Assembly: GCA_025980465.1 (NCBI GenBank)
Contig: JAICXJ010000002.1
Coordinates: 1 to 64,000, forward strand
Origin: Frankiales bacterium
GTDB lineage: Bacteria; Actinomycetota; Actinomycetes; JAFAQI01
DNA length: 64,000 bases
Direction: 5' to 3'
The position numbers and the translations under genes were made by a program. A model generated the notes under the pieces. It did not search any database and was not told the origin of the DNA. It worked only from the letters and a program-made list of their open reading frames with translations. Positions 28,142 through 40,339 of this stretch are shown piece after piece (position 1 is the stretch's first letter; the number at the start of each line of letters is the position of its first letter).

Positions 28142-28804
28142 TCACTCCTCGGTGCCGACGGTCGGTAGTGTCGCTAGCCGCTTCTCGTCGTAGCCGGCGG
28201 CCAAGCCTCGAAGCGCGACCTCGAGATACACCGTGAGATCGGCGTCGGCTCGTGACAGCCAGCGGTCATAGGCCGCTCGGGACGCGGCGAGGGTGGTCCG
28301 TCCGATTGCGAGCGGCTGCAGTGAATCGGGCGGCTCGCCGAGCCGGCCGGCCGCGAACTCGCTGACGGCGCGTTCCCACGCGTCGTAGTGCAGCGAGGCG
28401 CTCGCCTGCAGCGTCGGGTCCGAGCTGATCAGGTTCATCCGGGTCCGCAGCTCCGGCACGTCCTCCGCTCGGTAGCGGTTGACACCCACCACCGCCGCCC
28501 GGATCGCCGTCATCAGCGGGAGCCTCGGCGACACGTCCGCGAACGCCGCCCGTAGCGCCGCGACCTCGCCGTCGAAGGCGTGCCAGAGCACGTCTGCCTT
28601 CGAGTCGAAGTAACGGAAAAAGGTACGCCGGCTCACCCCTGCGGCGGCAGCAATCTGCTCGACCGTGGTGTCCGGGAAGCCATGTCGAGCGAACAGCCGT
28701 AGTGCCACGACCTCCAGCTCACGGGCGCTGGTCCCGGGCGGCCGGCCACGGCGGCCGATCGTCGGCGAGGCGGCGGGACTGGCCATGGCGGTTGATTCTG
28801 GCAC
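28142..28804 (-). CDS. mftR: TetR family regulator, mycofactocin locus repressor
   Basis: 220 residues from GTG 28804 (ATG 28786 possible). The HTH is in residues about 30-75: ALRLFARHGFPDTTVEQIAA, AAGVSRRTFFRYFDSKADVL. The C-terminal all-helical domain would bind a ligand; mycobacterial MftR responds to long-chain acyl-CoA. Divergent from mftA with 47 bases between, in which a short palindrome lies, so it most likely represses mft genes and itself. Neither start has a Shine-Dalgarno; a leaderless transcript is possible. Assignment as MftR rests on position plus family. Confidence 0.88.
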   Translation of the reverse strand: MPESTAMASPAASPTIGRRGRPPGTSARELEVVALRLFARHGFPDTTVEQIAAAAGVSRRTFFRYFDSKADVLWHAFDGEVAALRAAFADVSPRLPLMTAIRAAVVGVNRYRAEDVPELRTRMNLISSDPTLQASASLHYDAWERAVSEFAAGRLGEPPDSLQPLAIGRTTLAASRAAYDRWLSRADADLTVYLEVALRGLAAGYDEKRLATLPTVGTEE

Positions 28805-28809
28805 TGGAT

Positions 28810-28821
28810 GACGTTAATGTC
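28810..28821. promoter_or_regulatory. Near-palindrome between mftR and mftA
   Basis: GACGTTAATGTC is symmetric at 10 of 12 positions. It is 5 bases from the mftR GTG and 30 bases before mftA, and GTTAAT on one strand and ATTAAC on the other could act as -10 elements. A good candidate for the MftR operator, though short for a TetR site. Confidence 0.4.
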
Positions 28822-28851
28822 CGGCACACCGCTCGATTCGAAGGAGATTCG

Positions 28852-28986
28852 ATGGCTGAGACGACTGCTGAGGCGACTCCGGCGACCGAGGTCGCCCCCG
28901 AACCTGACCCAGCGACCGAGGACATCGTGATCGACGACGTACTCGTCGAGGAGGTATCGATCGACGGCATGTGCGGTGTCTACTAA
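28852..28986 (+). CDS. mftA: Mycofactocin precursor peptide
   Basis: 44-residue peptide; ATG 28852 has AAGGAG at 28841-28846. The leader is acidic and Pro/Thr/Ala-rich, and the C-terminus is the invariant IDGMCGVY. MftC decarboxylates the final tyrosine and crosslinks it to the adjacent valine; MftE then releases the dipeptide-derived core. The mftB GTG at 28976 lies inside the last codons, an 11-base overlap. Smaller than most gene-finder cut-offs, so easily missed. Confidence 0.97.
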   Translation: MAETTAEATPATEVAPEPDPATEDIVIDDVLVEEVSIDGMCGVY

Positions 28987-29281
28987 ATCCAGCCGTCCTG
29001 CCGTCCCACCCTTCGATCTGGATCGGGCCTGGCGGCTGCATCCCAGCGTCTCGATCCGGCCGGAACGGTTCGGCGCACTGCTGTATCACTTCGGAACCCG
29101 ACGGCTGTCGTTCCTGAAGAGTCCCGCGCTGCTGCAGGTCGTCGAATCGCTCGCCGACGCACCGACCGCTCGTGACGCCTGCACGATCGCGGGCGTGACT
29201 GATGCCGAGCTTGCGACGTACCAACGCGCGCTCGCAACGCTCGCGACCTCGCAGATGATCCAGGAAGCACCCGCCGCATGA
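28976..29281 (+). CDS. mftB: Mycofactocin peptide chaperone (RRE protein)
   Basis: 101 residues from GTG 28976, overlapping mftA by 11 bases; its stop overlaps the mftC ATG (ATGA). WRLHPSVSIRPERFGALLYH and FGTRRLSFLKSPALLQVVES are typical of MftB, a PqqD-like winged domain that binds the MftA leader and presents it to MftC. No metal or catalytic motif, as expected. Confidence 0.95.
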   Translation: MSTKSSRPAVPPFDLDRAWRLHPSVSIRPERFGALLYHFGTRRLSFLKSPALLQVVESLADAPTARDACTIAGVTDAELATYQRALATLATSQMIQEAPAA

Positions 29282-30459
29282 GCACTGCCGTCGACAGCCT
29301 GGTCGACCAGTTCGCACTCGGTCTCGATGCGCCGATCTGCCTGACGTGGGAGCTCACCTACGCCTGCAACCTCTCGTGCGTGCACTGCCTGTCGAGCTCC
29401 GGGCGACGCGATCCAGGCGAGCTGACGACGGCCGAGTGCAAGGCCGTCATCGACGAGCTCGAGCGGATGCAGGTCTTCTACGTGAACATCGGCGGTGGTG
29501 AGCCGACCGTGCGCCCGGACTTCTGGGAGTTGGTCGACTACGCCACCGCGCATCACGTCGGCGTGAAGTTCTCGACCAACGGCGTGAAGATCACCCCGGA
29601 GATCGCCTGCCGGCTTGCGGCGAGCGATTACGTCGACGTGCAGATCTCACTCGACGGCGCGTCCGCCGATGTCAACGACGCGGTTCGGGGGCAGGGCTCC
29701 TACGACGTCGCGATCCGCGCGATGCGAAACCTCGCCGATGCCGGCTTCCGTGGCTTCAAGATCTCGGTGGTCTGCACCCGGCAGAACATCGGACAGCTCG
29801 ATGAGTTCAGGGCGATCGCCGACCGCTACGACGCCCAGCTTCGGCTCACCCGGCTGCGACCCTCCGGCCGTGGCGCGGATGTCTGGGACGAGCTCCATCC
29901 CACCGCGGCACAGCAACGCGAGCTGTACGACTGGCTGCTCGGGCACGGTGAGAACGTGCTCACGGGCGACTCGTTCTTCCACCTTGCCGGGTACGGCGAC
30001 CCGCTTCCGGGGCTGAACCTGTGCGGCGCCGGGCGGGTGGTCTGCCTGATCGATCCGGTCGGTGACGTGTACGCGTGCCCGTTCGCCATCCACGATGCCT
30101 TCCTGGCCGGCAACGTCCGCTCGCCGGGCGGCTTCCAACAGGTGTGGCACCACTCCGAGCTATTCAACGAACTGCGGTCGCCACAGACCGGCGGCGCCTG
30201 CCGATCTTGCTCGGCGTACGACGCCTGCCGAGGCGGCTGCATGGCGGCGAAGTTCTTCACCGGGCTGCCGCTCGACGGCCCGGACCCGGAGTGCGTCAAG
30301 GGTCACGGCGCGAGCGCGCTGCAGCTGGTCGACCGGGCAGCTACCCCGAAGTCGTCGCTGGACCACTCTCATCGGACGGCTCGGCGGGCGGAGCCGGTGC
30401 CGGTCAGCATTGGCCGGCGACCCGATCGCGCCTGCGACGCCAGCCCGTTGGCCGGCTAG
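29278..30459 (+). CDS. mftC: Mycofactocin radical SAM maturase
   Basis: 393 residues. The radical SAM cluster motif CNLSCVHC has Cys at residues 30, 34 and 37; GGGEPT follows near residue 74. The C-terminal SPASM region holds auxiliary-cluster cysteines in NLCGAGRVVCLIDPVGDVYAC, GACRSCSAYDACRGGC and PECVKG. It performs oxidative decarboxylation of the MftA C-terminal Tyr and the later Val-Tyr C-C crosslink. The last about 40 residues are a basic, probably unstructured tail. Stop overlaps the likely mftE GTG by one base. Confidence 0.97.
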   Translation: MSTAVDSLVDQFALGLDAPICLTWELTYACNLSCVHCLSSSGRRDPGELTTAECKAVIDELERMQVFYVNIGGGEPTVRPDFWELVDYATAHHVGVKFSTNGVKITPEIACRLAASDYVDVQISLDGASADVNDAVRGQGSYDVAIRAMRNLADAGFRGFKISVVCTRQNIGQLDEFRAIADRYDAQLRLTRLRPSGRGADVWDELHPTAAQQRELYDWLLGHGENVLTGDSFFHLAGYGDPLPGLNLCGAGRVVCLIDPVGDVYACPFAIHDAFLAGNVRSPGGFQQVWHHSELFNELRSPQTGGACRSCSAYDACRGGCMAAKFFTGLPLDGPDPECVKGHGASALQLVDRAATPKSSLDHSHRTARRAEPVPVSIGRRPDRACDASPLAG

Positions 30460-31148
30460 TGACGACGATGCGGTTGGCCGACCTCAGCTGGCCGGAGGTG
30501 GCGGAGCAGGCCGGCATGATCCTCGCGCTTCCGGTCGGCGCGACGGAGCAGCACGGGCCTCATCTGCCGCTGTCGACGGACACCGACATCGCGGTCGCGC
30601 TGACCGAGCGGCTGGCCGCCCGCCGTACCGACGTCGTCGTCGCGCCGCCGCTCGCGATCGGCTCGAGTGGCGAGCATGCCGCGTTTCCGGGCACGCTCTC
30701 GATCGGTCGGGACGTCCTGAAGCTGGCGTTGATCGAGCTGGTGCGCTCGGCCCGACTGAGCTATGACGCCGTGCTGTTGGTTTCGGCTCACGGCGGCAAC
30801 GCTGCACCGATTTCGGCGGCCGTGAGGCAGCTGCGTGATGAGGGACATGACGTTGCGGTCGTGGCGCCGCGATGGGAAGGCGACCCGCATGCCGGGCGAG
30901 CCGAGACCTCGCTGATGCTCGCGTTGCGCCCGGAACTGGTGCGCATCGACCGCGCTGTAGCGGGACCGACGCAGTCACTCACCGACCTGCTGCCGCGCCT
31001 GAAAGCCGAAGGAGTTCGTGCCGTCAGCGAGTCCGGCGTGCTCGGTGATCCAACCGGCGCTAGTGCCATCGAAGGCAACCAGTTGCTTGCCGCGATCACA
31101 GCCACGATGTCCGACGAGGTCGCGAGTTGGCGGATGGCGTCGCCGTGA
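30459..31148 (+). CDS. mftE: Mycofactocin precursor peptide peptidase (creatininase family)
   Basis: 229 residues from GTG 30459 (ATG 30468 possible). Creatininase-fold metal sites: LPVGATEQHGPHLPLSTDTD near residue 25 (Glu, His, Asp), LLVSAHGGNAAP (His) and DPHAGRAETSLML (Glu). It cuts the modified MftA after the glycine, freeing AHDP. In this locus it directly follows mftC, where mycobacteria have mftD. An in-frame upstream extension to 30075 is antisense-free but only the mftC shadow frame and is rejected. Confidence 0.95.
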   Translation: MTTMRLADLSWPEVAEQAGMILALPVGATEQHGPHLPLSTDTDIAVALTERLAARRTDVVVAPPLAIGSSGEHAAFPGTLSIGRDVLKLALIELVRSARLSYDAVLLVSAHGGNAAPISAAVRQLRDEGHDVAVVAPRWEGDPHAGRAETSLMLALRPELVRIDRAVAGPTQSLTDLLPRLKAEGVRAVSESGVLGDPTGASAIEGNQLLAAITATMSDEVASWRMASP

Positions 31149-31939
31149 CGGATCGCCGCGTCGCCGTCGTCACCGGCGCGGCTCGGGGGATCGGGGCCGC
31201 AACCGTCGCGGCGCTCGTCACTGCCGGATGGTCGGTCCTTGCCGTCGACATTGCGGCGGACGACCCGGCGATTCCCTATCACCTCGCCGGACCTGATGAT
31301 CTGGATTCGGTGGTCGCGGCCGCAGGCGACCCGGACCGGGTGGCCGGCTACGTCGCGGACGTGCGTCACCTGACTGCGGTCGAGAGCGCGGTCGCCGAGG
31401 CCGAAGAGCGGTGGGGCGGCGTGGACGCGGCGATCGCGTGTGCGGGCGCGATCGTGGGCGGCATACCGCTGCAAGACCTCCCGCTCGAAGCGGAGCAGGC
31501 AGTCCTCGACATCAATCTCGGCGGCACGCTGAAGCTGGCGCGGGCATCGATCCCGGCGATGCTGCGGCGGCCGGAGCCGCGGGCGGGTCGCTTCATCGCC
31601 GTTGCATCGGCGGCGGCGACCCGTGGGCTGCCGTTGCTGGGGGCGTACTGCGCCGCCAAGGCCGGCGTCGCCGGGTTGGTGCGTTCGCTCGGCACCGAAC
31701 TCGGGCCGAGCGGTATCACCGCGAACGCGGTCAGTCCCGGGTCGACCGGTGGCGCGATGCTCGCCGAGAGCGCGCGGCTGTACGGCCTGTCGGCGCAGGA
31801 GCTGTTCGCGATGCAGCAACCGATCGGCCGGCTGCTCGCGCCCGCCGAGATAGCTGCGGTCATTGCCTTTCTCGCGAGTGCCGGTAGTGGTGGGATCACC
31901 GGCACAGTGGTACCGGTCGACGGCGGGCTGGCGCTGTGA
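31145..31939 (+). CDS. Mycofactocin-coupled SDR family oxidoreductase
   Basis: 264 residues from GTG 31145, overlapping mftE (GTGA); the mftF GTG overlaps its stop in the same way. Rossmann motif VAVVTGAARGIGAATVA, ADVRHLTAVES, ACAGAIVGGIP (NAG-like), the catalytic Ser in AVASAAATRG and YCAAK (YxxxK), then AVSPGSTGGAMLAES. Dehydrogenases of this group carry a non-exchangeable NAD(P) re-oxidised by mycofactocin. Its place inside the biosynthetic operon, between mftE and mftF, is strong evidence that it is a mycofactocin client. Substrate unknown. Confidence 0.88.
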   Translation: MTDRRVAVVTGAARGIGAATVAALVTAGWSVLAVDIAADDPAIPYHLAGPDDLDSVVAAAGDPDRVAGYVADVRHLTAVESAVAEAEERWGGVDAAIACAGAIVGGIPLQDLPLEAEQAVLDINLGGTLKLARASIPAMLRRPEPRAGRFIAVASAAATRGLPLLGAYCAAKAGVAGLVRSLGTELGPSGITANAVSPGSTGGAMLAESARLYGLSAQELFAMQQPIGRLLAPAEIAAVIAFLASAGSGGITGTVVPVDGGLAL

Positions 31940-33351
31940 CCGCGACGCCGTTCCCGGCTGAGCTCGCCATCGCGCTCGACGCCTCGACCCGTGAGGTCGA
32001 GCCCGGCACTTTGGTCGGCGGCTCGCCACGGCGGATGGTGCGACTGTCGACGGTGGGCCGAGCGGCGTTCAGCGAACTGCGGGCCGGCCGGGCGAGGTCG
32101 GCCGCCGCCGGCGTACTTGCCCGTCGGCTCACGGACGTCGGCCTGGCGCATCCCCGACCGGCGGGTCCGGACCTCCTCGATGTCACTGTCGTCGTTCCGG
32201 CGCACGGTCGACCCGACCTGCTGGCGGGCTGCCTCGCGGCGCTGGGGGATCGCCATCCGGTTGTGGTCGTCGACGACGCGTCGCCGGACGAGCAGTCGAT
32301 CGCGGCCGTCGCCGCCGAGCATGGTGCCACCGTTATTCGGCGCGACTGCAACGGGGGTCCGGCGGCCGCCCGAAACACCGGACTTGCTCGCGTCAGTACT
32401 GAGTTCGTCGCGTTCGTTGACAGCGACTGCCTTCCCGACGAGGGCTGGATCGAGGCCCTGGGCGGGCACTTCCGCGACCCGCTGGTTGCCGCCATCGCGC
32501 CGCGGATCGTGGCGGCGGACTCGAGCGGCCGGTACGTCGAGTCGGTCAGCCTCCTCGACCTCGGCGATCGCGAGAGCTGCGCCCGGGCCGGTGGTCCGGT
32601 CGGATACGTGCCGACGGCTGCGCTTGTGGTGCGCACCGCCGCGCTCGCCTCGCTCGGCCACGCGTTCGATGAACGACTCCGATACGGCGAAGACGTCGAT
32701 CTGGTCTGGCGACTGAACGCCGCGGGCTGGCGGGTCCGCTACGACCCAGCGGTCGAGGTCGGTCACCGCGAGCCGACCAGCTGGCGGCAGCGCTGGCGCA
32801 AGCGGTTCCACTACGGCACTTCCGCCGCGCCGCTGGCAGTCCGGCATCCCGGATCGGTCCCGCCGATGGTGGTGTCGCCGCTGTCGCTGGTTGCTGCGGC
32901 CGGGCTGCTTGCCCGCCGGCCCGGGCTGGCTGCTGCCGGGCTGGTCGGCTCGACGGCAGTTACCGCCCGAACGCTTCGCCGGGCCGGGTTGCCCGCCGCT
33001 GCCGTCACCGCGCCGCCGCTCGCGCTGCGCGCGACGGCATCGACCTGGGTCGCGACCGGGCGGGTAGCCGGGCAGTTCGGCCTGCCGGTCGTGCTGACGG
33101 CACTCGCCCGACTGCCGAAGGAATCGACCGGCTCGGTGTGGAGCCGGCGCCTCGCGGTTGCGGCCCTCATCAGCGCTGGACCGCTCGCGGCACATCGCCG
33201 GTCTGGGAGCCCGCTGTCTGCCGGCCGGTTCGTCGTCGGGCAGCTACTCGACGACATCGCGTACGGCGCTGGTGTCATCGCCGGCTGTATCCACCACCGC
33301 ACCGCCGACCCGCTTCGGCCGGTGCGGTCAATGACGACTGAGGTGGTCTAG
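31936..33351 (+). CDS. mftF: Mycofactocin glycosyltransferase (family 2)
   Basis: 471 residues from GTG 31936. After an about 80-residue MftF-specific N-terminal region comes the GT-A domain: DVTVVVPAHGRPDLLAGCL, VVVVDDASPDEQ, GGPAAARNTGL, AFVDSDCLPDEGW (DxD-like) and RYGEDVDLVWRL. Residues about 310-390 contain hydrophobic segments that may associate with the membrane. MftF adds the oligo-beta-1,4-glucose chain to the mycofactocin core. One-base overlap (TAGTG) with mftD. Confidence 0.95.
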   Translation: MTATPFPAELAIALDASTREVEPGTLVGGSPRRMVRLSTVGRAAFSELRAGRARSAAAGVLARRLTDVGLAHPRPAGPDLLDVTVVVPAHGRPDLLAGCLAALGDRHPVVVVDDASPDEQSIAAVAAEHGATVIRRDCNGGPAAARNTGLARVSTEFVAFVDSDCLPDEGWIEALGGHFRDPLVAAIAPRIVAADSSGRYVESVSLLDLGDRESCARAGGPVGYVPTAALVVRTAALASLGHAFDERLRYGEDVDLVWRLNAAGWRVRYDPAVEVGHREPTSWRQRWRKRFHYGTSAAPLAVRHPGSVPPMVVSPLSLVAAAGLLARRPGLAAAGLVGSTAVTARTLRRAGLPAAAVTAPPLALRATASTWVATGRVAGQFGLPVVLTALARLPKESTGSVWSRRLAVAALISAGPLAAHRRSGSPLSAGRFVVGQLLDDIAYGAGVIAGCIHHRTADPLRPVRSMTTEVV

Positions 33352-34553
33352 TGGCAAACCGCTGGTTCGAATCGGTGGCGGAGGCGCAGCGACGCGCGAA
33401 GAAGCGGTTGCCGAAGTCGGTGTACGGCGCGCTCGTCGCCGGGTCGGAGCGCGGCTACACGCTCTTCGACAACGAAGCCGCGTTCGGTGAGCTCGGCTTC
33501 GCACCGCACGTCGCCGACCTGGCGGCGGAGCGCGACCTCGCGACCAGCGTCATGGGGCAGCCGATCTCGCTTCCGGTAGTGATCTCCCCGACCGGCGTAC
33601 AAGCGGTCCACCCCGACGGTGAGGTCGCGGTGGCCCGGGCGGCTGCGGCGCGAGGGACCGCGGTGGGGCTGAGCTCGTTCGCCAGCAAGCCGATCGAGGA
33701 GGTCGTCGCCGCCAACCCGCAGACCTTCTTCCAGATGTACTGGACCGGAAGCAAGGAACAGATGCTGGAGCGGATCGAGCGGGCTCGCGCGGCCGGCGCG
33801 GTCGGCCTGATCGCGACGCTCGACTGGTCGTTCTCCAATGGCCGGGACTGGGGCAGTCCCAGCATCCCGGAGCGGATCTCGTTCGGTACGGCGCTGCGCT
33901 ACGCGCCGGAGGCGATCGCCCACCCGCGCTGGTTCTTCGCATTCCTGCGCCAAGGCAAGATCCCAGATCTCACCGTCCCCAACCTGGCGCGGGTCGGCGA
34001 ACCTGGACCCACCTTCTTCGGTGCGTACGGCGAATGGATGCAGACCCCGCTGCCGACCTGGAGTGACATCGCATGGCTGCGCGAGGAATGGGGTGGACCG
34101 TTCATGCTGAAAGGGGTCACCCGACCCGACGACGCGCGCCGGGCCGTGGACGCCGGGGTCACCGCGATCTCGGTGTCGAACCACGGCGGGAACAACCTTG
34201 ACTCGACCCCCGCCTCCATCCGGATGCTGCCGGGCGTGGTCGCGGCGGTCGGCGGCGACGTCGAGGTGGTGCTCGACGGCGGGATCCGGCGGGGGAGCGA
34301 CGTGGTCAAGGCCGTGGCGCTCGGCGCCCGCGCCGTCATGATCGGTCGCGCCTACTTGTGGGGGCTGGCCGCCAATGGCCAGGCCGGGGTGGAGAACGTC
34401 CTCGACGTGCTGCGCGGCGGCATCGATTCGGCGTTGTTGGGCCTGGGCAAGTCATCGATTCACGACCTGGATCCGGGGGACCTCGTGATGGCTGACGGGT
34501 TCGTGCGGACGGTCGTGACGAGGTCGCCGAAAATCAGGCGCGCGGCGCGCTGA
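33351..34553 (+). CDS. mftD: Mycofactocin FMN-dependent deaminase
   Basis: 400 residues from GTG 33351. FMN-dependent alpha-hydroxyacid dehydrogenase fold: PISLPVVISPTGVQAVHPDG, MLKGVTRPDDARRAVDAG, the catalytic-base motif VSNHGGNNLD and phosphate-binding DGGIRRGSDVVKA with GARAVMIGRAYLWG. MftD converts the released AHDP into pre-mycofactocin by oxidative deamination to the alpha-keto amide, the redox-active group. It is last in the core operon here, after mftF. The gene ends 28 bases before the GNAT gene. Confidence 0.96.
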   Translation: MANRWFESVAEAQRRAKKRLPKSVYGALVAGSERGYTLFDNEAAFGELGFAPHVADLAAERDLATSVMGQPISLPVVISPTGVQAVHPDGEVAVARAAAARGTAVGLSSFASKPIEEVVAANPQTFFQMYWTGSKEQMLERIERARAAGAVGLIATLDWSFSNGRDWGSPSIPERISFGTALRYAPEAIAHPRWFFAFLRQGKIPDLTVPNLARVGEPGPTFFGAYGEWMQTPLPTWSDIAWLREEWGGPFMLKGVTRPDDARRAVDAGVTAISVSNHGGNNLDSTPASIRMLPGVVAAVGGDVEVVLDGGIRRGSDVVKAVALGARAVMIGRAYLWGLAANGQAGVENVLDVLRGGIDSALLGLGKSSIHDLDPGDLVMADGFVRTVVTRSPKIRRAAR

Positions 34554-34581
34554 TAGCGCCGTTTCGGGGAAGAGCGTGGTC

Positions 34582-34857
34582 ATGGACTTCCGCAAGAACA
34601 CCGAGCGGTCCCGGTACGAGTTGCTCTACGGCGAGGTGGTCGTCGCCGTCGCCGACTACGTCGAGCGCCCCGACGTCGTTGTCTTCCCACATACCGAGGT
34701 CGACCCACAGCTACGGGGCCGCGGCCTCGCGGCGGAGCTGGTCCGGCAGGCGCTCGATGATGTCCGGGCTTCCGGCCGGCACGTGGTCGCGAGCTGCTGG
34801 TACGTCGCGGACTTCATCGACGCCAATCCGACGTACGCCGACCTGCTCCTCGCCTGA
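34582..34857 (+). CDS. Small GNAT-family N-acetyltransferase
   Basis: 91 residues from ATG 34582 (GTG 34576 possible; GGGGA at 34566-34570). The family COG2388/NATD1 layout is visible: short beta strands YELLYGEVVVAVADYV, FPHTEVDPQLRGRGLAAELV (the acetyl-CoA loop RGRGLA) and a helix, with SCWYVADFIDANPTYADLL at the end. These minimal GNAT proteins are of unknown substrate. It is 28 bases after mftD on the same strand, so probably read through from the mft operon. Confidence 0.85.
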   Translation: MDFRKNTERSRYELLYGEVVVAVADYVERPDVVVFPHTEVDPQLRGRGLAAELVRQALDDVRASGRHVVASCWYVADFIDANPTYADLLLA

Positions 34858-34917
34858 GCTCGGCATCCCGATTCTGCCGACCCGAAGCGATCGGCGGGGG
34901 TACCCTTATCGCGCACC

Positions 34918-35463
34918 ATGCGCAGCATTGACGTAGTCATCGGCATCGGTTGGCTGTTGTTCTGGGCCTACTGGTTAGCAGCTGCGTTCGGGATGAAGTC
35001 CGGGCGAAACCGCTGGCGTCACTTCGCCGGTGCCCGCCTGGTCACGGTCGTTGTCGTCGTGGCGCTGTTGCGCGTGAAGGCGTTCCGTGGCCATGTCGGC
35101 CACGATGCCTGGTTGGCCGGCATCGGCCTTGGACTGTTTGTTGCCGGATTGGCGCTGGCGATCTGGGCGCGCTTGCACCTTGGCCGCAACTGGGGCACGC
35201 CGATGTCCGAGAAGGACGAACCCGAGCTCGTGACCTCCGGGCCGTACCGCTGGATCCGCAACCCGATCTACTCCGGCCTGATCCTCGCGATGATCGGCAC
35301 TGCGGTCGCAGTGACACTGACCTGGCTCGTCGTCGCCGTGGTCGCCGGCGGCTTCTTCGGGTACAGCGCCGTCGTCGAGCAGCGGTACCTGGCCGCTCGG
35401 TTCCCGGACAGCTATCCGGCGTACCGCAACTCCACGAAGATGCTGGTCCCGTTCGTCTTCTGA
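34918..35463 (+). CDS. Isoprenylcysteine carboxyl methyltransferase (ICMT/PEMT) family membrane protein
   Basis: 181 residues, four to five membrane helices (about residues 5-25, 38-52, 65-85, 118-142). The SAM-binding C-terminal motif is TSGPYRWIRNPIYSGLIL followed by FGYSAVVEQRYLAARFP and YPAYRNSTKMLVPFV, the standard ICMT/NnrU-like pattern with the RHPxY-type motif read here as RNPIY. Predicted SAM-dependent methylation of a membrane lipid or small molecule. Sits between mftD and the mycofactocin-dependent alcohol dehydrogenase on the same strand. Confidence 0.87.
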   Translation: MRSIDVVIGIGWLLFWAYWLAAAFGMKSGRNRWRHFAGARLVTVVVVVALLRVKAFRGHVGHDAWLAGIGLGLFVAGLALAIWARLHLGRNWGTPMSEKDEPELVTSGPYRWIRNPIYSGLILAMIGTAVAVTLTWLVVAVVAGGFFGYSAVVEQRYLAARFPDSYPAYRNSTKMLVPFVF

Positions 35464-35599
35464 CGCGACTTGTGGGTCGGGGGTCGCCGGAGGAGTCAGC
35501 GGCGGCGATAACGGACGAAGTGCTCCCGGCTCAAGACAGCGCCTTTAGTTGTGACTACTGTTCGTAAAGCAGCACATCGAGCCACCGAAGGGACCGCCC

Positions 35600-36748
35600 G
35601 TGGACACCAGAGCCGCCGTCTTGTGGAAGACCCATTCCCCCTGGGAGATCGAGGAGATCACCCTGGACCCGCCCAAGCAGGGCGAGGTCACTGTTGCGCT
35701 TGCCGCATCAGGTCTCTGCCATTCCGACGAGCACCTGGTGACCGGCGACATGCAGATGCCCGCCGACATGCAGGAGCTGCTGGGGTTCCCCCAGTACCCG
35801 ATCATCGGTGGCCACGAGGGCGCCGGCACGGTCGTCGAGGTCGGCCCGGGTGTGACCTCGGTCAAGGAGGGTGACCCGGTCTCGCTCGGTTTCATCCCGT
35901 CGTGCGGTCGCTGCCCGTCGTGCTCCTCCGGCCGGCAGAACCTCTGCGACCTCGGCCAGTACCTGATCGTCGGCAAGCAGGTCGCCGACCTGACCTCGCG
36001 CCACCACCTGGCGAAGGACGGCACGGACATCGGCATCATGTGCTGCCTCGGCACCTTCGCGCCGTACAGCGTGGTCAATGAGGCGTCGGTCATCAAGCTC
36101 GAGGACGACATTCCGCTGGACAAGGCGGCGCTCGTGGGCTGCGGTGTGACGACCGGCTGGGGCTCGGCGGTTTATCGCGCAGACGTACAGCCGGGCGAGA
36201 CCGTTGTGGTCGTGGGTGTCGGCGGCATCGGCATCAATGCCATCCAGGGTGCCGCAGCTGCCGGGGCGCGACACATCGTCGCGGTCGACCCGGTCGCGTT
36301 CAAGCGCGAGCAGGCACCGTTGTTCGGTGCGACCCACGCTTGCGAGACGGTGGAAGAGGCATTCGCGCTCGTCGGCGAGATCACCTGGGGGGCGATGGCC
36401 GAGAAGGCGATCATCTGCACCGGCGTCGCCGAGGGTTCGATGATCGCGTCGGTCTTGGCGCTGGTGTCCAAGGGCGGCCGTTGTGTCGTCACGTCAGTCG
36501 CCGACATCAAGGCGACCGACGTGACACTGAGCCTGTTCGAGCTGACGCTCATGCAGAAGGAGCTGGTGGGTGGCATCTTCGGTGGTGCCAACCCGCGCAA
36601 GGACATTCCGCGGCTGCTCCGGCTGTACAAGGAGGGCAAGCTCAAGCTCGACGAGCTGATCACCAGCGAGTACAAGCTCGAGGACGTCAACCAGGGCTAT
36701 CAGGACATGCGCGACGGCAAGAACCTGCGGGGACTGATCCGCTACTAG
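35600..36748 (+). CDS. NDMA-dependent (mycofactocin-dependent) zinc alcohol dehydrogenase
   Basis: 382 residues from GTG 35600, GAAGGGA at 35587-35593. Zinc-binding medium-chain dehydrogenase: catalytic Cys40 in SGLCHSDEHLV, GGHEGAG (His-Glu), structural cysteines in SCGRCPSCSSGRQNLCD, catalytic-site Cys in ALVGCGVTTGWG, and the nucleotide motif VVGVGGIGINAI. The long insertion CDLGQYLIVGKQVADLT with HHLAKDGTDIGIM is typical of the NDMA-dependent methanol/alcohol dehydrogenase family, whose tightly bound NAD is recycled by mycofactocin. A 136-base gap before it contains its probable promoter. Substrate could be methanol, ethanol or longer alcohols. Confidence 0.92.
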   Translation: MDTRAAVLWKTHSPWEIEEITLDPPKQGEVTVALAASGLCHSDEHLVTGDMQMPADMQELLGFPQYPIIGGHEGAGTVVEVGPGVTSVKEGDPVSLGFIPSCGRCPSCSSGRQNLCDLGQYLIVGKQVADLTSRHHLAKDGTDIGIMCCLGTFAPYSVVNEASVIKLEDDIPLDKAALVGCGVTTGWGSAVYRADVQPGETVVVVGVGGIGINAIQGAAAAGARHIVAVDPVAFKREQAPLFGATHACETVEEAFALVGEITWGAMAEKAIICTGVAEGSMIASVLALVSKGGRCVVTSVADIKATDVTLSLFELTLMQKELVGGIFGGANPRKDIPRLLRLYKEGKLKLDELITSEYKLEDVNQGYQDMRDGKNLRGLIRY

Positions 36749-36752
36749 ATCG

Positions 36753-37217
36753 TTGGACAGTTGGGAGGTCGTCGCCCGGGAATCGATCCGGGCGACGCTC
36801 GCCCGCTACAACGCCGCCGGCGATCGCGGTCAGCTCGCCCGGTTGGCCGCCTGCTTCACTCCCGACGGCGTACTGCACTACACCGGCACCGATCACGCGG
36901 TGGGTCGCGAGCAGATCGAGGCTCAGTTGGCCGAGCTGTCAGCGAGGGCGCGCGACAGCGGGCGGAGCAAATATGTCCACCACCACGTCGCGGCACTCGA
37001 CATCGAGTTGACCAGCCGCACCGAGGCGACCGTCCGGTCGTACTTCCAGGTCCTGACCGAACGCGGCCTTGACCACTGGGGTCGCTACGACGACATCGTC
37101 GTCGAGTACGACGGGCGCTGGCTGCTCAAGGACCGCAAGGTGAGCACCGACGGCCGGGTCGAGGGCAGCTGGGCGGACTCGGCCGAAGGCCGGACGCTGG
37201 GCGCCACTGGGGGCTGA
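36753..37217 (+). CDS. SnoaL-like (NTF2-fold) protein
   Basis: 154 residues, start TTG 36753, 4 bases after the alcohol dehydrogenase stop. ESIRATLARYNAAGDRGQLA with ACFTPDGVLHYTG, then VHHHVAALDIELTSRTEATV and GRYDDIVVEYDGRWLLKDRK match the SnoaL_4 family. These cone-shaped proteins are small isomerases/hydrolases or binding proteins. Its stop overlaps the start of the cyclase (TGATG), so both are translationally coupled. Confidence 0.8.
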   Translation: MDSWEVVARESIRATLARYNAAGDRGQLARLAACFTPDGVLHYTGTDHAVGREQIEAQLAELSARARDSGRSKYVHHHVAALDIELTSRTEATVRSYFQVLTERGLDHWGRYDDIVVEYDGRWLLKDRKVSTDGRVEGSWADSAEGRTLGATGG

Positions 37218-40200
37218 TGCTGTGTGAGTGGTGGGCAAACGTCTTGACCGAATGCGTCAACTGTTCCGCGCAGCTGCCAGATGGCGCGCGCTTCTGTCCG
37301 AACTGCGCGACCCCGGTCGCGGCTGCGCCCGCGGCAGAGGAGCGCAAGCTCGCCACCGTGCTGTTCGCCGATCTTGTCGGTTCCACGGCGTTCGCGTCGG
37401 CCCGCGATCCGGAGTATGTCCGCGACATTCTTGACCGCTACTACGACGCGATGAGCGCGGAGATCCTCGACCGCGGCGGGACGCTCGAGAAGTTCATCGG
37501 TGACGCGGTCGTGGCGGTTTTCGGCGCGCCGGCGGCCCGTGAGGATCATGCCGAGCGCGCTCTCGACGCGGCGCTGGCGATGCAGGTGCGGTTCGAGGAG
37601 CTCTTCGGCGCCGACGAGCTGGGGCTGCGGATCGGGGTGAATACCGGCGAGGTCGTACTTGGTCGCGCCCGCCAGAGCAGCTCGTTCGTCAGCGGCGACA
37701 CCGTCAACACCGCCGCGCGGCTCGAGGCCGCAGCACCGTCAGGACACGTGCTGGCCGGCGAGCGGACGGTAGCTGCCGTCGGCGCTGCGTTCGAGTTCGA
37801 CGTGCCGATCACGGTCACGGCCAAGGGAAAGCCGGCCGGCATACCGGCGCGGGTCCTGCTCCGGATGGTCTCGCCCACGCGACCGCGTGGCCGGCTGACA
37901 CAGATGTTCGTGGGCCGCGAGGACGAGCTCAGCGAGCTGGCCCGCGACCTGGCGGCCTGCATCGAGCAGCAACTCCCGCGGTTCGTGGTTATTGTCGGCG
38001 ACCCGGGGCTTGGCAAGAGCAGCCTCGTGGCGCAGTTCCGGGCCCGAATCTCCGCTGGCGTCATGGTGCGGATCGGTCGATGTGTCTCGTTCGGCCGGGG
38101 TGCGACCTACAGCCCGCTCGCCGATGTACTCCGCGAAGATCCCGATCTGCCGGCCGTGCTGGAACGGCGAACGATCCTCGGCGTTACTCTCGGCGACCCC
38201 GCGCCCGCTGACCTCGACCCGCGGGTCGTCGCTGAGCAGCTTCGCGCGGCGTGGGTCGAGCTGCTGTCGGAGCTCGCCACCGAGCAACCGGTCGTCCTCG
38301 TCGTCGAGGATCTGCACGGGGCGAGTCAGCCGCTCCTCGCCCTGCTCGCGCGAATGGCTACCGACGTGCGCGGCCCGGTGTTCCTGCTCGCCACGGTGAG
38401 GCCGGACGCGATGGTGCCCGAGGGCCTGCGGCGGCTGAGCCTGGATCCGCTGTCGCCATCCGAGGTCGATACCTTGCTGACCGAACTCCTGGGCGAGGGG
38501 CTGCCGGCCGACGCGCGAGAACTGATCGTGCGCCGCGCCGAAGGCAACCCCTTCTTCCTCGAAGAGATCACCGCGTCGTTCATCGACCGGGGGCTGCTCA
38601 AGCGGGACGACGACGCCTGGTCGTGGCACGGGTCGGTCGATGCTGTCGACGTACCGGACTCGGTGCAGGCCGTCCTCGCCGCGCGCATCGACCTGCTCAG
38701 CGCCCCGGCGAAGTCCGCGCTGCAAGCGGCGTCGGTAATCGGCCGTGTCCTTGACGAGGCCGCGCTCGCGGAACTCGGGGCGACCGACCAGATCGACGTG
38801 CTAGTGCGCCGAGGATTCCTTCAGGTGCTCGGCGACGATCTCGTGTTCAAGCACGCGTTGACCCGGGAGGTCGCCTATGGCACGTTGCCCAAGGCGAAGC
38901 GCGCAGCGCTGCACGCAACGTATGCGTTGTGGCTGGAGCAAACGACAGGCAGTATCGATGCGCAAGCGGCGGCGCTGGCGAGTCACTATGCGCAGGCGGT
39001 CGAACCGGACATCGCGCCGCTTGCGTGGCGTGGGCGTGAGGCCGAGCTCGAGCGACTGACTTTGACTGCCATCGACTGGTCGCGGCGCGCGGCTGACGTT
39101 GCAATCCGCGGGTACGACATCGAGTCCGCGCTGGGGCATCTGCACCAGGCCGCGAAGCTCGCACCGGGCGACGCGCAACTCTGGCGTGCAATCGGTCGCG
39201 CTAACGCGCTCATATACGCGGGACAGGCGTACTGGGACGCAATGCTGCACGCGATCGAACTGGCAAGTGATCCCGTGCAGCTCGGCGAGATCTATGCCGA
39301 GCTTGCCCTCGAGTCGTTGCTGCGCGCGGCGATGTGGCAGACGGCACCTGATCCACAGGTCGTTGACGGCTGGGCCGAGAAGGCTGTGGAGCTGACGCTC
39401 CCCGACTCGCTCGGACGCGCCCGCGCCCTGACCGCGCACTCGTTGGCACACGACGACGACGCGACAGCCGACGCGGCAATCGCGATTGCACAACGGCACG
39501 GCGACCACGCGCTGGTCAGCAACGGGTACCTGACCCATTGGGCGACGGCGACAATGGTGCGAATCGATTACCACGAGGCGTACGACTGGGCGATGCGCGG
39601 ATCTGCGCTGGCGGAATCGGTCACCGACCCCGACCGGATCGCCACGATCCACCAGGCGTCGGTGGCAGCGGCGCTCGCCCTGGCCCGCTTCGACGAGGCA
39701 GATGAGCATGTCCACCGCATGGCCGCGGTCGCCGAGCGGCTGTCCCCGCACCACGCCGTACATGTGATGGGCGCGCGCACGAGCCGATACGAAGCCATGG
39801 ATGACTGGGCTGCGATTCGAGAACTACAGCCTGAGATCGAGCGGATGGTCGCGAGCGCCACGTCGCCGTGCTCGTTCAACGCGCGGCTGCTGATGTCCTG
39901 CGCGGTTGCGGCCGCCGATGCCGGGTTGGATGGCGAGGCGTCGCGGCTCGAGGCCGCAACGGATTCGCTCGGACTCGACAGCTACCGGCTCTGGTTCGAT
40001 CCGCTGCGGGCTCGGCTTGCTGTCGGCCGTGATGATCTCGAGCGGCTTGCAGTGCTGGTCGAAGACGCTGACAGGTGGGGGTGGGCTCTCTACGTGCACT
40101 GTTTCGCCATCAGAGCACACCTCGACGCGCTCCTTGCGCTCGGTCGTTACGGCGATGCCGCCCGCCAGGCTGACCGGTACAACCAGCCGGGTAGCTACCT

Positions 40201-40339
40201 GGAGCCGTTCGCGCTGTGGACCCTCGCGGTCGTGCACGACGACCCTGACCGGGCCACGCACGCAGCCCAACTCTTTCAAGCGATGGGGCTCTCGCGAGCA
40301 GTCACCCGCGCCGCGCACCGCCCACACGGATGGCGCTAG
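37217..40339 (+). CDS. Class III adenylate/guanylate cyclase with zinc ribbon, AAA/NTPase and TPR domains
   Basis: 1040 residues. Domains in order: zinc ribbon (CVNCSAQLPDGARFCPNC, residues 13-30); class III cyclase catalytic domain (residues about 44-205) with metal Asp in LFADLVGSTAF, second Asp in FIGDAVVAVFG, and transition-state Asn/Arg in DTVNTAARLEAA; NTPase domain with Walker A IVGDPGLGKSSLV (about 257) and Walker B VLVVEDLHG; then a long helical TPR/MalT-like region to the end. No LuxR HTH follows. All catalytic metal residues are kept, so active cNMP synthesis is likely, controlled by the NTPase/TPR sensor. Ends by sharing CTAG with the convergent small gene. Confidence 0.92.
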   Translation: MLCEWWANVLTECVNCSAQLPDGARFCPNCATPVAAAPAAEERKLATVLFADLVGSTAFASARDPEYVRDILDRYYDAMSAEILDRGGTLEKFIGDAVVAVFGAPAAREDHAERALDAALAMQVRFEELFGADELGLRIGVNTGEVVLGRARQSSSFVSGDTVNTAARLEAAAPSGHVLAGERTVAAVGAAFEFDVPITVTAKGKPAGIPARVLLRMVSPTRPRGRLTQMFVGREDELSELARDLAACIEQQLPRFVVIVGDPGLGKSSLVAQFRARISAGVMVRIGRCVSFGRGATYSPLADVLREDPDLPAVLERRTILGVTLGDPAPADLDPRVVAEQLRAAWVELLSELATEQPVVLVVEDLHGASQPLLALLARMATDVRGPVFLLATVRPDAMVPEGLRRLSLDPLSPSEVDTLLTELLGEGLPADARELIVRRAEGNPFFLEEITASFIDRGLLKRDDDAWSWHGSVDAVDVPDSVQAVLAARIDLLSAPAKSALQAASVIGRVLDEAALAELGATDQIDVLVRRGFLQVLGDDLVFKHALTREVAYGTLPKAKRAALHATYALWLEQTTGSIDAQAAALASHYAQAVEPDIAPLAWRGREAELERLTLTAIDWSRRAADVAIRGYDIESALGHLHQAAKLAPGDAQLWRAIGRANALIYAGQAYWDAMLHAIELASDPVQLGEIYAELALESLLRAAMWQTAPDPQVVDGWAEKAVELTLPDSLGRARALTAHSLAHDDDATADAAIAIAQRHGDHALVSNGYLTHWATATMVRIDYHEAYDWAMRGSALAESVTDPDRIATIHQASVAAALALARFDEADEHVHRMAAVAERLSPHHAVHVMGARTSRYEAMDDWAAIRELQPEIERMVASATSPCSFNARLLMSCAVAAADAGLDGEASRLEAATDSLGLDSYRLWFDPLRARLAVGRDDLERLAVLVEDADRWGWALYVHCFAIRAHLDALLALGRYGDAARQADRYNQPGSYLEPFALWTLAVVHDDPDRATHAAQLFQAMGLSRAVTRAAHRPHGWR

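Follow-up and report, generated by a model that had tools for sequence, protein, structure and literature searches.

Among described mycofactocin (MFT) systems, one of the closest to the one analyzed here is the mycobacterial mftRABCDEFG locus, whose MftG protein (TIGR03970) feeds mycofactocin electrons back into respiration, as demonstrated in a 2025 study (eLife, PMC11778925). About 25% of genomes with mftC have already been reported to have no mftG, and the same study left open whether other enzymes substitute for MftG (PMC11778925). We examined an mft locus in a 64,000-nucleotide stretch of DNA ("the window": positions 1 to 64,000 of contig JAICXJ010000002.1, assembly GCA_025980465.1) from a Frankiales bacterium of the class Actinomycetes. 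This locus resembles the mycobacterial one in its divergent MftR, its genes A to F and its tight packing, but mftD has moved to the end, a gene for a short-chain dehydrogenase/reductase (SDR) of family TIGR04504 stands between mftE and mftF, and no MftG was found in the genome. We tentatively favor the reading that the TIGR04504 SDR is a dedicated single-copy partner filling MftG's place in MFT redox cycling, and not just another client; given its basis in gene content and sequence, we regard this as plausible, somewhat short of probable.

The evidence that carries this proposal is the distribution of the two proteins. We searched 297 genomes of the window's class with profiles at curated cut-offs, finding MftC in 91, MftG in 37 and the TIGR04504 SDR, always as a single copy, in 46; no genome contained both MftG and the SDR. 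Among the 91 MftC genomes, 36 had MftG, 45 had the SDR, none had both and 10 had neither. Three of these 10 contain the Gordonia-type MftG TIGR04542 (two of them above cut-off, the third split where a contig ends), two (G246 and G209) encode a choline-dehydrogenase-like protein of the glucose-methanol-choline (GMC) family next to the locus or immediately behind mftF, one (G011) shows a fragment of the SDR at the edge of a contig, and four (G002, G009, G260 and G292) are 68-87% complete. The choline-dehydrogenase-like GMC genes beside mft genes (L204:9655-11241 in G246, L216:15844-17193 in G209) are a possible third MftG-like enzyme. Lower-scoring GMC matches in SDR genomes (about 300-370 bits) were not accepted as MftG, as equal scores also turn up in genomes lacking MftC (e.g. 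G269, G035). A literature search turned up no earlier account of the disjoint TIGR04504 and MftG distribution.

In a phylogeny of MftC, the SDR and MftG states swap at least eight times, including between the close relatives G224/G126, G276/G268 and G064+G259/G027+G161. MftG changed opposite to the SDR in four to six of nine phylogenetically independent pairs, and in the same direction in none. A naive Fisher test gives p of about 1e-16 for the exclusion, a value we do not rely on because it ignores shared descent; the phylogeny-corrected support is modest and suggestive. The SDR is also tied to a particular neighbor. The stable unit across loci is mftE followed by the SDR gene: in 22 loci the two genes overlap by 4 bp, in roughly 31 they are no more than about 50 bp apart, and they stay paired after the locus has split, lying 2.5 and 4.8 Mb away from A-B-C-D in G048 and G233. 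In one MftG genome (G108, locus L273), MftG lies near an extra pair of mftR-like and mftB-like genes, some 20 kb away from where the main mft genes are.

The sequence-only reading had noted that mftG was missing, and a genome-wide search of the host (3.45 Mb, 106 contigs) agreed, giving no protein above the TIGR03970 or TIGR04542 cut-off; as the assembly is 95.45% complete in 106 contigs, mftG is probably, though not certainly, truly absent. The host encodes four distant GMC proteins, which we rejected as a hidden MftG by score (best 71 bits, against an MftG cut-off of 387) and by their tree position outside the MftG group. Elsewhere in the same genome (L008:7886-10478, contig C27), a GMC protein beside a gluconate 2-dehydrogenase subunit 3-like gene is probably a membrane-linked dehydrogenase unrelated to MftG.

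The window SDR matches TIGR04504 (NCBIfam SDR_subfam_2, mycofactocin-coupled) over its full length (residues 4-263); we found no difference from that family, which occurs once per genome, and a literature search found no paper naming it. Its nearest described relatives are the carveol-dehydrogenase-like nicotinoproteins of TIGR03971 (3PGX, 3S55; PMC5264612), with which it shares the SDR fold, the catalytic Ser-Tyr-Lys and an NAD-covering insertion of similar length containing Tyr and Asp-Leu. It differs from them in scoring only 175.8 bits against the TIGR03971 client cut-off of 300, and TIGR03971, unlike the SDR, is rich in paralogues and coexists with MftG. The insertion buries NAD in TIGR03971 enzymes (PMC5264612). 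In the window SDR it lies between D35 and D72, alongside conserved catalytic residues S155, Y168 and K172, so that the protein has both features of the sequence signature of trapped-NAD nicotinoproteins: the catalytic Ser/Tyr/Lys, and extra residues over the adenosine that separate the second-strand Asp from the one following it. Across the family, two conserved Asp residues are separated by 33-41 residues in 48 of 51 sequences, both a Tyr and a Leu are conserved in the insertion, and part of this region is absent from ordinary SDRs in the comparison alignment. The predicted structure (pLDDT 93) gave query-normalized Foldseek TM scores of 0.89-0.90 with the mycofactocin-linked NAD-trapping SDRs 3S55, 3T7C and 5EJ2, and of about 0.81-0.86 with FabG-type SDRs; the nearest solved structure by sequence is 3PGX. 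Because the NAD-covering insertion is present, the window SDR likely holds its NAD trapped.

A recycling cycle can be drawn from these parts. The alcohol dehydrogenase (ADH) encoded downstream, dependent on N,N-dimethyl-4-nitrosoaniline (NDMA), would oxidize its substrate and reduce MFT; the tightly held NAD+ of the SDR would then take a hydride from mycofactocinol (MFTH2), regenerating MFT, and the SDR would pass the hydride on. Its second acceptor could be a flavoprotein, a carbonyl compound or a quinone-like compound. The SDR would then be a non-homologous alternative to MftG. The one observation pointing to MFTH2 oxidation as a candidate activity of the SDR is its mutual exclusion with MftG. 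The host genome contains no TIGR03971 client SDR above cut-off and a single TIGR03989 ADH, the one in the window, so an ADH acting as reducer and an SDR acting as reoxidizer would close the system, whereas an SDR acting as client would leave MFT without a recognizable outlet. The redox potential of NAD is about -320 mV. That of premycofactocin (PMFT), by comparison, is -255 mV (PMC11778925). Transfer to free NAD+ would thus be uphill, and the insertion speaks against exchange of the bound NAD, so that the acceptor is more plausibly a carbonyl, a quinone or a flavoprotein. The chemistry itself has a precedent, because in related nicotinoprotein SDRs hydride moves between the bound NAD and MFT or PMFT, as shown in the direction of MFT reduction (PMC7491314). 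More tentatively still, TIGR04504 SDRs might make up a second, non-homologous class of MFT-recycling enzymes, repeatedly swapped with MftG, and so account for mycofactocinol reoxidation in actinomycetes without MftG. With its strict either/or pattern, the single-copy SDR is a concrete candidate for the MftG replacement, and the question becomes directly testable in culturable Amycolatopsis; if the proposal is true, the annotation of TIGR04504 would change from client to recycler.

Several points weigh against this reading. The phylogeny-aware sign test within the class reached a median p of only 0.06 (range 0.03-0.13), as the tree offers few independent switches for pairing, and several MftG calls outside family f5 score 412-462 bits, against the cut-off of 387. 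The recycling role is a prediction from sequence and distribution; an insertion that holds NAD non-exchangeably would mean that the SDR could not simply feed the free NAD pool, and how an SDR would reach the respiratory chain is not obvious. Outside the class, the 29 MftC genomes from other classes of the phylum include none with MftG, 13 with a single-copy SDR and 16 with neither. MFT use therefore requires neither protein, and the either/or rule is specific to the class. Five of the 16 have another SDR within the cluster, between A and B. A distinct layout occurs in family f56 (L235, L237, L239, L240 and L242), where an SDR gene stands between mftA and mftB and an NDMA-type ADH often follows directly after mftC.

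The strongest competing explanation is that the SDR is an ordinary client oxidizing one particular secondary alcohol and passing the electrons to MFT, with MFT reoxidized in some other way or MftG dispensable. The NAD-covering insertion would suit such a client, mycofactocin-linked carveol dehydrogenases that trap NAD are among the nearest structures (3PGX; 3S55, 3T7C, 5EJ2), and TIGR03971-like SDRs are found in other mft clusters (R. jostii table, PMC3023750). However, TIGR03971 and TIGR03989 clients multiply beside MftG in mycobacteria (26 and 5 in M. avium; PMC3023750), whereas the TIGR04504 SDR is always single and never occurs with MftG, and there is no evident reason why a client should be tied to mftE. 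We therefore consider the client explanation somewhat unlikely. The sequence-only reading had cast the SDR as an obligate client and had supposed that another protein may replace MftG. The first idea is doubtful, as it leaves the single copy, the coupling to mftE and the absence from MftG genomes unexplained; the second seems right, with the SDR itself as the likelier replacement.

Its attachment to mftE, kept in split loci, together with its single copy and its position embedded among biosynthetic genes, could instead mean that the SDR acts in making or maturing MFT near the MftE and MftD steps, for example by reducing an intermediate, and that the exclusion of MftG is indirect. Mycobacteria, however, make MFT with MftA-F and no TIGR04504 SDR (PMC7491314), none of the MftG genomes has the SDR, the SDR loci studied retain E and usually D and F, and a biosynthetic role does not predict the exclusion of MftG; we judge such a role quite unlikely.

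Still less likely for this host is that MFT electrons exit through an electron-transfer flavoprotein (ETF) and a FixC-like quinone oxidoreductase, the SDR being incidental. Genes for mft_etfA (NF038209), FixC-like and FixX-like proteins do lie beside mftE or the SDR in several loci outside the window's family, sometimes with the mycofactocin-system old yellow enzyme (OYE) genes TIGR03996 and TIGR03997, and they occur in MftC genomes with neither MftG nor SDR (G260, G527). But none were found in the window, in the pieces of the host genome read or in mft loci of its family, and their presence in two MftG genomes (G001, G232) means that they are not a strict alternative to MftG. In the organisms that carry such loci, an ETF-to-quinone outlet for mycofactocin is possible on the strength of gene content. 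At L238:5751-14000, mft_etfA, FixC-like and FixX-like genes before mftE are preceded by the two OYE genes, and no mftD was detected; the same three genes also precede mftE in L045, L046, L135, L138, L150, L208, L250, L257 and L258. In family f18 (L255-L261, L264-L267), the detached E-SDR module has an EtfB-EtfA pair a few kb away, probably reflecting one ancestral location.

It is very improbable that mftG was lost in an assembly gap or that its function is carried out by one of the four GMC proteins: although the genome is a 95% complete draft and one GMC protein is encoded about 52 kb from the locus on the same contig, no member of the window's family (f1) has MftG above cut-off, SDR-type genomes with one-contig chromosomes (G024, G048, G161) also have no MftG, and the four GMC proteins fall far outside MftG in the tree.

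The proteins of the locus were called with curated NCBIfam profile hidden Markov models (HMMs) at their curated cut-offs (Table 1). With MftA to MftF all above cut-off in one locus and a precursor ending in VY, the locus is, by its gene content, an intact MFT biosynthetic operon of an MftG-less variant. The gene identities and order given by the sequence-only reading were borne out by the HMMs, as was the link between the SDR and mycofactocin, and so were its overlapping junctions: mftR is divergent from mftA-B-C-E-SDR-F-D, in which every junction overlaps, with ATGA at B/C, TAGTG at C/E and F/D, and GTGA at E/SDR and SDR/F, and with mftA and mftB overlapping too.

Table 1. Features of the mft locus, in window coordinates, with profile scores and cut-offs.
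Feature	Position	Strand	Profile match
mftR, TetR-type regulator, divergent	28142..28804	-	TIGR03968 249.1 bits, cut-off 224.9
mftA, mycofactocin precursor peptide, 44 aa, C-terminus IDGMCGVY	28852..28986	+	TIGR03969 41.6 bits, cut-off 25
mftB, chaperone / recognition element	28976..29281	+	TIGR03967 115.6 bits, cut-off 33
mftC, radical SAM maturase	29278..30459	+	TIGR03962 663.7 bits, cut-off 265
mftE, creatininase-type peptidase	30459..31148	+	TIGR03964 285.3 bits, cut-off 172
Mycofactocin-coupled SDR (SDR2), candidate MftG stand-in	31145..31939	+	TIGR04504 332.5 bits, cut-off 250; NF040491 297.2, cut-off 265
mftF, glycosyltransferase	31936..33351	+	TIGR03965 366.7 bits, cut-off 280
mftD, premycofactocin synthase	33351..34553	+	TIGR03966 706.1 bits, cut-off 470.85
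Small GNAT-like protein	34576..34857	+	PF14542 92.4 bits
ICMT/PEMT-like membrane methyltransferase	34918..35463	+	PF04191 47.0 bits, PF04140 43.6 bits
NDMA-dependent alcohol dehydrogenase, likely mycofactocin client	35600..36748	+	TIGR03989 585.5 bits, cut-off 440

The rearranged order had been put forward as novel, a claim that did not survive comparison across actinobacteria. We annotated mft loci from the 297 class genomes and from named genomes with profiles built for this analysis, and the order A-B-C-E-SDR-F-D recurred in Amycolatopsis nivea (L044), in L124, L125, L129 and L130 of the window's family, and in L182 and L185 of another family; with the identical order present in A. nivea and in families f1 and f14, we rejected its novelty. 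Several further families have the layout A-B-C-D-E-SDR-F (e.g. L140, L184, L189, L206), and family f5 shows the mycobacterial A-G order. Neither the gene order nor the missing mftG is novel in itself: the known system has a widespread MftG-less variant, to which the locus belongs. The A. nivea locus (NZ_SDLT01000025.1) also shares the 4-bp E/SDR overlap and encodes an SDR 63% identical to that of the window; it differs in that no GNAT- or ICMT-like gene was found there and no ADH lies in the stretch read.

The GNAT-like and ICMT/PEMT-like genes stand between mftD and the NDMA-dependent ADH gene. Their profiles matched in the window and in no other mft locus examined, and the ADH gene lies near mft genes only in some relatives, so we rejected all three as fixed parts of the operon. 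Members of the ADH's family are held to pass electrons to MFT, and by family membership the window ADH is likely a mycofactocin client. Downstream of the locus, positions 37217-40339 of the window encode a large zinc-ribbon / adenylate cyclase / AAA ATPase protein that partly resembles TOMM-system kinase/cyclase fusion proteins.

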